Source of the DNA: a virus
Virus record (IMG/VR): IMGVR_UViG_3300009365_003810
Coordinates: 1 to 22,330 of that record
DNA length: 22,330 nucleotides
Direction: 5' to 3' (one strand)
How positions within the stretch are numbered: position 1 is the first letter of the stretch; every line of letters starts with the position of its first letter. The notes below the pieces were generated by a model. That model was given only the letters and a program-made list of their open reading frames with translations, was not told the origin of the DNA and did no database searches. Below are positions 108-21,691 of this stretch, in pieces. A program made the translations under genes and the position numbers.

Positions 108-332
108 ATGCCAACAATCACCGAAATCCAAGAGCGACTTGCCCGCTACAAAGATCGCGAAACTAAGATTTTAGAGGGCAACCAGAGTTACCAGGTAGGC
201 CGGAGTCAATTCACCCATGCCGATCTGGACACGGTCCAGGCCAAGATCAAAGAACTGGAACATGATTTGGCGATGGCCCAGACCGGTGATCGTCTTTCCC
301 ATAACACCACAGTTTTTGGAGGCCGCCGCTGA
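108..332 (+). CDS. gpW-like head-tail joining protein
   Basis: A 74-residue protein. Its layout is a helix, a short beta hairpin (around QSYQVGRSQF) and a second charged helix (KIKELEHDLA), matching the compact gpW / DUF6148 fold. In lambda, gpW (68 residues) enters the DNA-filled head at the portal vertex and prepares the site for the next connector protein. The position immediately before a lambda-family portal is exactly where this gene sits in lambda-like phages. I see no good Shine-Dalgarno before the ATG at 108, so the start is less certain than the frame. The stop overlaps the portal start by one base (TGATG). The family call rests on size, predicted fold and context. Confidence 0.75.
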   Translation: MPTITEIQERLARYKDRETKILEGNQSYQVGRSQFTHADLDTVQAKIKELEHDLAMAQTGDRLSHNTTVFGGRR

Positions 333-1960
333 TGGAGACCTCCGGTCGAGCCTATAAAGTCGGCGCCCTGGCCCGTCGCACATACGACTCAGTCACCGGC
401 TTGGTGTCCAGCGCCATCGGGGTGTTTTCTCCTGGACGTGCAACTCTCTATCGGTATGGCCGCGAAATTTATCGGTCATATGCGGCCGGTGATGTTAATA
501 ACGGCCCTAATCAAAATTGGCGGCCCAAGCCCCGATCCGCAGACGCCGATATCAAGAAAAATCACAAGTATATTGTCGGCCGGGCTCGGGAACTTGCTCA
601 AAATTCCGGCCATATCTCCGGCGCCATTGAGCGGATCTGCAACAACGTGGTGCGGAAAGGCATTAATCCCCAGGCAGCATTGCGTAACAAGAGCGGAAAA
701 TTGCAGAAAGACGTAAATGACCGATTGGAGTTACTTTTCAGCCGCTGGAAACGCCATGCCGATTTGAGCGGGCATTCAGGCTTTCCTGGTTTGCAAAAGT
801 TGATTCTCCGCCATATGTGGACTGACGGAGAGGTGTTGGTCCACAGGGTCATGATCGATGATGCCCCTCCTGGAATTGTGCCGCTGAAAATCGAGTTAAT
901 CGAGTGTGACCAACTCGATCGGCGAGTGGACGGTCCATTGTCCAACGGCAATATCGGCCGCCGGGGAGCAGAACTTGCCCCATCCACGGGCAAGGTTGTC
1001 GCCCTGCATGTGCTGGACAGCCATCCGGGTGATTACCTGAACCTTGGCCGTATGCCTAAAAGCCTACGAATCCTTGCTGAAGATATTTTCCATGTATACG
1101 ATCGCCGCCGAATCAGCCAGACCGGTGGCGTGCCTTGGCTGGCCTCCATCCTGATAGAGTCATACGATCTCTCCGAATATAAAACCACCGAGAAAATCGG
1201 CGCCCGGCTTGCCGCAGCGTTCGGGATTTTCGTCAAAACAAATTACCCGGGCATGACTCCGGGTATTGGCGTTCCGCCGCCTGGTCCGCTGGTCAACCCC
1301 AATAATTCCGGTGAGCCCGTTCAAACCGCACCAGGTTGGGCCGACATGCCGGATTATATCGAACCGGGCCGTATCCAGGGTATCCCTGCCGGCACCGACA
1401 TTGAGGTTGCCAGCCATAACCGCCCAGGCACGCAGTACGAGCCATTTGTCCGCGACTCCCATCGAGCTCAATCCACCGGCTTCGGTATGAGCTACGAGGG
1501 GTTCTCAAACGATTACACTTCTTCGAGCTACGCCTCTGCCCGGTCCGGATCCCTGGAAGAGCGCCTGTCGTATCAAGGGCATCAGGATTTCTTGAACGAT
1601 CATTTTAACGATCATATTTGGGCCTGGTTTGTTGAGGCCGCCTGGTTGGCCGGCATGCTGCCCGAGCTACGCGACTATGCCCGTAATTCCCTTTTCTATC
1701 AAGAGGCTGTGACCTGGCAAAGTCCGGGCTGGACCTGGGTCGACCCCTTGAAGGACGGCAGAGCCTCTGAAATTTTGATTGATAACGCCTTGTCAACCCG
1801 TCGGAAATTGAGTGCCCAGCGTGGCGAGGATTTTGATGAAAACGTCAACGGGCTGATCGATGAAGAAGAAAAGCTCTTAAAACTCTGGGAATTAAGAGCC
1901 CGCAGGAAAAAATTAGAGGAGGAAGCCAGTGGATCGAAAAGCAATAGCCAAAGCGCTTGA
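332..1960 (+). CDS. Phage portal protein, lambda family
   Basis: A 542-residue protein that forms the dodecameric ring at one capsid vertex through which DNA is packaged and ejected. The N-terminal third holds the hallmark of the lambda portal family (PF05136): the RARELAQNSGHISGAIERI segment followed by NNVVRKGI. Later come SYDLSEYKTTEKIGARLAAAFGIF and the FSNDYTSSSYASARSGSLEE segment, the conserved core of lambda gpB-type portals. The C-terminus is a charged, Lys/Glu-rich helix. A GGAG Shine-Dalgarno lies at 318-321, and the ATG at 332 overlaps the gpW-like stop. The 3' end overlaps the next gene by 32 bases. Length is normal for the family. Confidence 0.95.
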   Translation: METSGRAYKVGALARRTYDSVTGLVSSAIGVFSPGRATLYRYGREIYRSYAAGDVNNGPNQNWRPKPRSADADIKKNHKYIVGRARELAQNSGHISGAIERICNNVVRKGINPQAALRNKSGKLQKDVNDRLELLFSRWKRHADLSGHSGFPGLQKLILRHMWTDGEVLVHRVMIDDAPPGIVPLKIELIECDQLDRRVDGPLSNGNIGRRGAELAPSTGKVVALHVLDSHPGDYLNLGRMPKSLRILAEDIFHVYDRRRISQTGGVPWLASILIESYDLSEYKTTEKIGARLAAAFGIFVKTNYPGMTPGIGVPPPGPLVNPNNSGEPVQTAPGWADMPDYIEPGRIQGIPAGTDIEVASHNRPGTQYEPFVRDSHRAQSTGFGMSYEGFSNDYTSSSYASARSGSLEERLSYQGHQDFLNDHFNDHIWAWFVEAAWLAGMLPELRDYARNSLFYQEAVTWQSPGWTWVDPLKDGRASEILIDNALSTRRKLSAQRGEDFDENVNGLIDEEEKLLKLWELRARRKKLEEEASGSKSNSQSA

Positions 1961-20199: not shown

Positions 20200-20510
20200 T
20201 GGCCCTGCAGCCTAAACAAAGCCGTTTTGCTCATATGGTAGCTCTGCTCATTCTCCATGCTGAGCAGCTGGAGTACCAAGTAACTTTTGGCGACGCCTAC
20301 CGTGATCTACGCACACCATACGGCAACCCCAAAAGCCTACACAAGATGCGGCTGGCAGTTGACCTGAATCTATTTAAGGACAACAAATATTTAACCGGGA
20401 CCGAAGATCATCAGCCCCTTGGTGAATACTGGGAATCAATCGGTGGATCCTGGGGTGGACGCTTCGATGACCCGAACCATTATTCCCTGAGACATGAAGG
20501 TATGAAATAA
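20199..20510 (+). CDS. M15-family zinc peptidase, probable endolysin
   Basis: 103 residues. Three conserved positions mark the M15 / VanY-like (PF13539 type) L-Ala-D-Glu or D-Ala-D-Ala peptidases. His48 lies in KSLHKM, seven residues before Asp55 in RLAVDLN; a second zinc histidine, His94, lies in the GGSWGGRFDDPNHYSL segment. These enzymes cut the peptide stem of peptidoglycan, and phages use them to lyse the host. The ATG at 20199 overlaps the -1 frame stop of the preceding membrane protein; the open frame extends upstream to 20091 but that part is a shadow. No signal peptide is present, so release probably depends on a holin-type partner. Length is short but includes all zinc ligands. Confidence 0.88.
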   Translation: MALQPKQSRFAHMVALLILHAEQLEYQVTFGDAYRDLRTPYGNPKSLHKMRLAVDLNLFKDNKYLTGTEDHQPLGEYWESIGGSWGGRFDDPNHYSLRHEGMK

Positions 20511-20523
20511 GGAGGATTCAATT

Positions 20524-20817
20524 TTGAGAAGATCAGTTAGAAAATTACTTTTTGATGTCCCGGTGTTTGGCATATTTTTAATGCTTGTGGCACTTGCTAC
20601 TCCATTCCTGGCGATGGCTGCTGAAAGTTATGTATGGCAGGTGACCGTTGCTTGGAATTTTAACAGCACCAGGCCAGATGAGGCCGGTTTTCAATTGTTG
20701 CATCAAGGGGCCGCTGTGCCCGACTGCTTTGTTACTGACCCGGAGATACGGGAAATGACCTGTGAGGCTGTTTTTTCGGAAGGCAATCAGAGTTTTACTG
20801 TTTCTGTTCAAGGTTAA
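20524..20817 (+). pseudogene. 5' part of a secreted FN3-like protein gene, truncated by an insertion
   Basis: The start is TTG at 20524, with AAGGAGG eight bases upstream. Residues 1-32 are a signal peptide: a basic n-region (RRSVRKLL), a hydrophobic core (FGIFLMLVALATPFLA) and an AMA/A cleavage site. The mature part (VWQVTVAWNFNSTRPDEAGF, then two Cys in DCF and TCE) looks like one fibronectin-III-type sandwich with a likely disulfide. The frame closes at TAA 20815-20817, just where a hairpin-rich insertion begins. Sequence beyond the insertion (21002-21127) reads as the missing final strand, so the intact ancestor had about 137 residues. The truncated form may still be exported, but it lacks the last strand. 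Function is unknown; lysis accessory or envelope modification roles are possible. Confidence 0.6.
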
Positions 20818-21001
20818 AGCCCCCGCCTTTCAGGCGGGTAGCATTCTGCTAGCAGTATGTTTTTATGGATCGGAAAGTGGCTTTTGTATTAACGAGCCAC
20901 ATGTAACCATGTATAAACTTTGAACATTAATTAAGATAGTACAGGACTTTTAGTCCTCAGTTAAACCCACCTACTTCAGTAGGTGGTTGTTTAGTCTTGC
21001 C
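20812..21001 (+). mobile_element. IS200/IS605-like palindromic insertion (MITE) inside the secreted-protein gene
   Basis: About 190 non-coding bases with a chain of hairpins. They are 20822-20838 (seven pairs, TTC loop), 20846-20855 (perfect palindrome CTGCTAGCAG), 20877-20900 (GTGGCT/AGCCAC), 20943-20957 (AGGACT, TTT, AGTCCT) and 20967-20986 (eight pairs, TTCA loop). The CCC..CTTTCAG..GGG and CCACC..CTTCAG..GGTGG hairpins at the two ends resemble subterminal hairpins of IS200/IS605 elements. No transposase or TnpB frame is present, so it would be a non-autonomous derivative. Ends are approximate: removing a segment that joins the codon ending at 20811 to 21002 restores the flanking gene. No target duplication is seen, as expected for this family. 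Confidence 0.5.
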
Positions 21002-21127
21002 ACTGTTTACACGGATGGGAGTTATTCGGAAAGCAGTCTCCCTTTCGTATCAGCGGCGATGCTAAATTCAAAAGCCTCGCCGACCAATTCGAAAATCTCC
21101 ATCAAGTACTTACGGAAATTAGAATAA
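21002..21127 (+). pseudogene. 3' remnant of the interrupted secreted FN3-like gene
   Basis: A start-less open stretch of 41 codons in front of a TAA. It reads TVYTDGSYSESSLPFVSAA and then a basic tail ending KYLRKLE. The YTDGSYSESS phrase is what the last strand of an FN3-like domain usually looks like, and it completes the truncated protein ending SFTVSVQ at 20811. It has no ribosome-binding site or start codon of its own. Together the two pieces show that the gene was whole before the intervening hairpin-rich segment arrived. The hydrolase gene follows 45 bases later. Confidence 0.6.
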
Positions 21128-21172: not shown

Positions 21173-21691
21173 ATGATGCCGAAATTACAAGCCGGTGATG
21201 TGTTCTGCGTGTCCAGGAAGACCTGGATTGGCCGGGCTATCAATGCCGTTCAAAAAATCTTGTCACGAGATAACCACTCTATATATTCACATACCGGCAT
21301 CATTCGCGATGGCAACGGGATGACCCTTGAGGCCCTTGAGAAAATTACAACGCAGCACTTTTATAACGCATATAAGGGTGAACAGGTGCTTATTGCCCGT
21401 GTTCGGTCACTGGACAAAAGGCGTGTAAAGGAGGCAATATCAAAACTGGACGCAGAGCATCTTGGAGATATTTATCCGTATTGGCGCCTTCCCCTGCAGC
21501 TTTTCCCAATTCTGGCAAAATATATCTCTTACAAAGGGAGATGGCTGGTGTGCTCCGAGCTGACTGGCAAGTTTCTGCATCTTATAGGCGAACGACATCG
21601 AGGCTATAAAGGGACAACACCGGACACGCTGGCCGACGAATGGCGGAACTGGAAGAACTTTGAGATTATCTACGAAGGGGTGATCCCTTAA
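21173..21691 (+). CDS. Permuted papain-like hydrolase (YiiX/NlpC-P60 superfamily)
   Basis: 172 residues from the ATG at 21173, preceded by AAGGAG six bases upstream; an earlier in-frame TTG at 21128 is less likely. It follows the circularly permuted NlpC/P60 order: LQAGDVFCVSR near the start, then His40 in YSHTGIIRDG, Glu53 in TLEAL, and the nucleophile Cys127 in RWLVCSELTG. YiiX/YebB-type members of the superfamily cut amide or ester bonds, with peptidoglycan, lipids or proteins as substrates. No signal peptide is seen. Position after the M15 peptidase suggests a second wall-acting lysis enzyme, but action on a host protein or lipid is equally open. Confidence 0.75.
   Translation: MMPKLQAGDVFCVSRKTWIGRAINAVQKILSRDNHSIYSHTGIIRDGNGMTLEALEKITTQHFYNAYKGEQVLIARVRSLDKRRVKEAISKLDAEHLGDIYPYWRLPLQLFPILAKYISYKGRWLVCSELTGKFLHLIGERHRGYKGTTPDTLADEWRNWKNFEIIYEGVIP

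Follow-up and report, generated by a model that had tools for sequence, protein, structure and literature searches.

A putative transposase-less IS200-group element interrupting the gene of a small exported protein in a phage genome

The DNA considered here, hereafter the window, is the virus record IMGVR_UViG_3300009365_003810 at its length of 22,330 bases, and the gene of interest lies near its right end. The portal protein of the window (332-1960) is 58-59% identical to those of prophages in G248, G205 and G212, genomes that belong to the order of MAG G001 (see below), a similarity pointing to a Desulfobacterales-like host, probably a sulfate-reducing bacterium. A match to the portal gene was absent in G001, the nearest MAG, which is therefore not demonstrated as the host. 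The coding segments of the locus are the following.

20217-20510, plus strand: upstream gene for an M15-type peptidase, a phage endolysin (Pfam PF13539, E 3.7e-7; PHROG endolysin; 26 viral loci).
20524-20798, plus strand: 5' part of the split gene, encoding an N-terminal export signal and most of an FN3-like domain (91 codons and 2 bases; open reading frame with homologs in 65 of 258 genomes).
20995-21127, plus strand: 3' part of the split gene, encoding the last strands of the domain and a C-terminal tail (alignment of the junction to homologs).
21173-21691, plus strand: downstream gene, preceded by a ribosome-binding site of its own, for a 172-residue lysis/accessory protein of peptidase-like type (L007 and the G120 prophage have homologs, 48% and 40% identical respectively).

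In its present form the split gene is read from a TTG start behind AGGAGG as a frame of 97 residues with a hydrophobic N-terminus (20524-20817), in agreement with an earlier sequence-only reading that had described an exported protein stopping at 20817. A hairpin-rich, non-coding stretch of about 190 bases comes next, after which the frame is open to 21127. The stretch folds far more stably than its shuffled versions (z = -5.4, none of 200 shuffles being equal, DNA parameters), and an Rfam search returned no match. The same reading had placed a mobile insertion at 20812-21001; its hairpin-rich and non-coding character stands, whereas both edges and the length have to be changed, since other copies of the element place it at 20799-20994, with the following features.

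20794-20798, plus strand: target pentanucleotide TTTAC, abutting the left edge of the element (TTTAC, once TTGAC, before six G001 copies; TTTAC, TTTAT, TTCAT or TTAAT before others).
20799-20994, plus strand: putative non-autonomous IS200-group element (PATE) of 196 bases, no tnpA (elements in 46 of the order's 258 genomes match its left end, LE, q1-66, and right end, RE, q146-196, but not its middle).
20799-20817, plus strand: left-end bases now read as VSVQG and the stop TAA (same TGTTTCTGTTCAAGGTTAAAG in six MAG copies with unrelated left flanks).
20816-20819, plus strand: AAAG, the putative guide tetranucleotide of the left end (covariation with target base -1 over 27 copies).
20822-20838, plus strand: left-end hairpin CCCGCCT-TTC-AGGCGGG (DNA fold, z = -4.0 for 20799-20860).
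20856-20940, plus strand: element middle, unrelated to tnpA or anything found (no match; fold z of only -1.75).
20943-20957, plus strand: conserved small right-end hairpin AGGACTTTTAGTCCT (matches the RE of tnpA-bearing elements).
20963-20966, plus strand: putative right guide tetranucleotide AAAC (directly 5' of the RE hairpin, assigned after the IS608 model, PMC6006769).
20967-20986, plus strand: right-end hairpin CCACCTAC-TTCA-GTAGGTGG (DNA fold, z = -5.3 for 20938-20994).
20991-20994, plus strand: terminal TTAG, the right cleavage site (GTTTAG and then unrelated flank in eight MAG copies and most full copies).

The edges were set by copies of the element ends elsewhere. When a 31-base left-end pattern was scanned against 84,980 species genomes, six matches were obtained, all in one Desulfobacterales MAG (G001) and every one near a contig end, as would be expected of a repeat on which assemblies break. 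These six copies agree with the window at every one of the 47 bases that follow TTTAC (once TTGAC), starting TGTTTCTGTTCAAGGTTAAAGCCCCCGCC, and 94% identical over 67 bases counted from 20799; their left flanks are unrelated, and the left edge is therefore 20799. Each of the eight right ends found in G001 terminates in GTTTAG, with a T and unrelated sequence beyond it, which places the right edge at 20994. The remaining ambiguity amounts to one base, a T assignable to either side, and leaves the empty site unchanged. About 20 further copies of the left end, again with unrelated left flanks and a TTTAC/TTTAT-type target directly before them, occur in genomes related to G001, and one or both element ends are present in 46 of the 258 genomes of the Desulfobacterales order. 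A boundary initially drawn from a plasmid comparison (from GGTT/AAAG to GTC, 181 bases) was dropped, as the MAG copies extend the left end to TTTAC; a further check of the boundary relied on an interrupted gene in L059, whose joined frame looks to the eye like that of a type I specificity subunit, but it had no Pfam support and was set aside. In G001 (LH_M18; L034-L053) at least 14 element ends lie near contig ends, this IS being a main breaker of the MAG assembly.

Both ends of the insert are homologous to those of tnpA-bearing IS200/IS605 members. Its right part matches plasmid intergenic sequence just behind the tnpA of such elements in Azotobacter, Vibrio and Deinococcus, and its left hairpin matches the left ends of the same plasmid elements. 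Full copies with tnpA measure 574-582 bases (other subgroups reach about 593), most of them ending in GTTTAG; they carry tnpA only, and their TnpA is a Pfam Y1_Tnp protein (E 6e-42) whose nearest solved relatives are IS200-type transposases, including IS608 TnpA. The window copy retains about 66 left-end and 51 right-end bases. Neither tnpA nor any Y1 transposase is found in the window, so the insert is not an autonomous IS200. It has palindromic IS605-type ends with subterminal hairpins on one strand (z -4.0 for LE, -5.3 for RE), is too short for a transposase and has no terminal inverted repeats; there is no target-site duplication either, the right flank lacking a repeat of the target and the join restoring the frame. 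A classical MITE was rejected, as terminal inverted repeats and target duplication are both missing. Judged by these sequence features, the 196-base insert at 20799-20994 belongs to the IS200 group as a non-autonomous element, a PATE (palindrome-associated, without transposase), an identity that the sequence-only reading had not given.

Neither the end patterns nor the middle of the element gave a hit in 2.9 million viral contigs, so that the segment is not part of the normal layout of unrelated phages. The 85 bases of the middle (20856-20940) had no match in the 258 genomes of the order, in viral contigs or in the comparison with tnpA, and a second copy of the exact element was not found in a search including these genomes and contigs, the host's own genome not being among them. 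Other forms occur in the order. Elements of a second subgroup start with CGTCCG after TTAATT-like targets (L064, L065, L067, L077, L078, L081, L084). G012 harbors another element that lacks tnpA; it measures about 325-340 bases, has ends of the same kind and is present as three near-identical copies at unrelated sites, each after GTTTAC, and thus is a multi-copy PATE of the order (L125-L127; C36, C9, C6). The L126 copy is bordered on both sides by CTGTTTACTCGGCACAG, which is unusual in a family that does not duplicate its target.

When 20798 is joined to 20995, with edges taken from the element alone, one in-frame reading frame of 135 codons results. Relatives of the 135-residue protein were found in 65 of the 258 Desulfobacterales-order genomes (E <= 0.01), and in nearly every alignment from the 20 loci inspected the junction is crossed without a gap (in the window SFT followed across the junction by LATVYTDGSYSESSLPF, compared with NFTLTATFSDGTESPHSAPF and similar), L085 and L101 having a one-residue gap close to it. 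Against homologs, none of which ends at the present stop, the restored protein gains about 2 to 20 bits over the truncated form. It had been proposed that joining 20811 to 21002 yields a protein of about 137 residues; this join keeps 13 bases of the element (20799-20811) and drops seven of the gene (20995-21001), thereby creating two extra junction residues that are absent in homologs, and its product scores 5.8 bits lower in most pairs. The proposed missing last strand is indeed encoded in a frame reading on to 21127, but the gene resumes at 20995 and not at 21002. Bases 20799-20811 being element DNA, the last residues VSVQG of the 97-residue frame and its stop codon (20815-20817) are encoded by the transposon end. 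The truncated phage protein, deprived of its last strands, is probably non-functional. With element ends at many unrelated sites and uninterrupted homologs across the junction as two independent lines, the central claim of the sequence-only reading, that a small mobile insertion has split one exported FN3-like protein in the lysis/accessory region, is supported.

Relatives of the split protein are mainly exported FN3-like domains within large proteins, with a smaller exported form of 163 residues at L105. Pfam yields neither an FN3 nor any other match for the family, and a family profile reaches the FN3 domains of chitinase A1 and NagJ at E about 0.02. The intact FN3-like domain supposed earlier is thus plausible, and "FN3-like" may serve as a fair, if weakly founded, description rather than as proven membership. 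The uninterrupted homologs, which had been expected in related prophages, come from Desulfobacterales genomes: the joined protein has no relative in IMG/VR or GenBank phages and none in plasmids at a useful E-value, and prophages related by portal protein gave no clear homolog of the split gene. They gave one weak syntenic candidate, in the G120 prophage, whose portal is 50% identical to that of the window. Its lysis region (L117:12079-14856) encodes a small exported FN3-like protein of similar layout about 1.8 kb upstream of the peptidase-like homolog (40%); this small protein resembles the split-gene family only weakly (E 0.047 with the profile, probability 49 in hhalign). Possibly, then, the pairing of a small exported protein with the peptidase-like gene is conserved between G120 and the window. 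In phages sharing either the endolysin or the downstream peptidase, the split gene is not adjacent to it.

We consider it very probable (about 0.92) that a transposase-less IS200-group derivative jumped into TTTAC within an exported FN3-like phage gene, most likely mobilised in trans. The short derivative of a Y1/HUH insertion sequence would have entered TTTAC as single-stranded DNA, with a host TnpA most likely acting in trans; TnpA would bind the hairpins, and the guides would choose the cleavage sites, AAAG with TTAC on the left and AAAC with TTAG on the right. The insertion left no target duplication, and the left end of the element adds five codons and a stop, cutting the protein to 97 residues with loss of its last strands. 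The predicted empty site is CAGAGTTTTAC joined to TCTTGCCACTG, with a clean TTTAC/TCTTGCC junction. Several points count against this account: neither a second copy of the exact element, nor tnpA in the window, nor an empty site from the same phage was found, the 85 bases of the middle are unexplained, G001 carries no matching portal gene, and related copies swell the covariation count given below.

The main competing view is that a full IS200-group element jumped autonomously and lost tnpA in place, leaving a decayed, internally deleted and immobile remnant. The single copy of the short form, and LE and RE that keep the order and orientation of full copies, would suit such a history, which we nevertheless regard as unlikely: the middle does not resemble tnpA, so that a simple deletion is insufficient, and the three near-identical copies of the tnpA-less G012 element indicate that such forms multiply in the order. 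For these two reasons, movement of the short element with help in trans is favoured over decay in place. IS200/IS605 transposons excise precisely, and for that reason the element might even switch the phage gene off in a reversible way, at any time when TnpA is available from the host, with two protein forms in the phage population; we hold this to be very improbable. Lower still stands an assembly artefact in which a repeat fused two unrelated contigs, for although this repeated family does break assemblies and G001 contigs end inside the element, the flanks of the insert combine in frame to give a single domain that is continuous at the level of residues, which is not expected of random flanks. 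Equally remote is a REP/RAYT-type palindrome (TnpA-REP) in place of an IS200 end: the Y1 family and similar hairpins are common to both, but no GTAG tag lies 5' of the hairpins, LE and RE differ as in an IS, and ends of this kind enclose the parent tnpA. Strong hairpins behind a stop codon would also be accounted for by an ordinary terminator or regulatory hairpin array that separates two genes, with the 97-residue protein complete, yet this reading is already refuted by hairpins that are transposon ends at unrelated sites, a stop inside the element and a downstream frame encoding the missing strands.

Cleavage in the IS200/IS605 family is directed by tetranucleotides that lie 5' of the hairpins and act through linear and cross complementarity to the target (PMC6006769; PMC8266576). 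Over 27 left ends, target base -1 follows guide base 4, C occurring with G in 9/9 cases and T with A in 16/18, and in both T-A exceptions the guide region is rearranged. A switch of target base -3 from T to A or C is accompanied by one of guide base 1 (from A to T or G), but no such change goes with a G at -3. The Fisher value for this covariation (5e-7) is overstated, since the copies are related, six near-identical ones coming from one MAG, and events are fewer than cells. In the window TTAC would pair with AAAG on the left and the terminal TTAG with AAAC on the right, the latter seen here and not counted across copies. Among the Desulfobacterales IS200 left ends (L034-L084), the combinations TTAC/AAAG and TTAT/AAAA occur, as do TTCAT and TTAAT with TAAA or GAAA. 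The covariation agrees with the prediction of the IS608 model, and the natural changes of target and guide between copies look like evolutionary retargeting.

The split phage gene is in itself a clear but ordinary insertion event, and the PATE kind is already known. What matters is an ends-only IS200 element within a phage gene, its two edges established by independent copies as well as by the restored protein, and a Desulfobacterales IS200 lineage whose co-changing target and guide bases provide natural evidence for a guide model derived from IS608 experiments. With the IS200 group of IS200/IS605 (models IS608 and ISDra2) the window element shares subterminal hairpins, unlike LE and RE, guide tetranucleotides 5' of each hairpin and insertion 3' of a fixed short target without target duplication, but the window copy has no tnpA, measures only 196 bases and has an unrelated middle of 85 bases. 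Ends-only IS605-type derivatives have been described as PATEs in Haloquadratum walsbyi (PMC3119063) and Halanaerobium (PMC7290912). These likewise consist of ends only, lack a transposase, have palindromes near their termini and do not duplicate the target; they are chromosomal, whereas the element described here, by its sequence a new PATE, lies in a phage gene and stems from a tnpA-only (IS200) parent of the Desulfobacterota. The split protein, finally, shares with the FN3-like exported domains of Desulfobacterales two conserved Cys, an FTLTAxxxDGxESxxSxPF ending and the N-terminal signal present in many of them, but it is a free-standing small phage protein, whereas those domains mostly occur within large chromosomal proteins.
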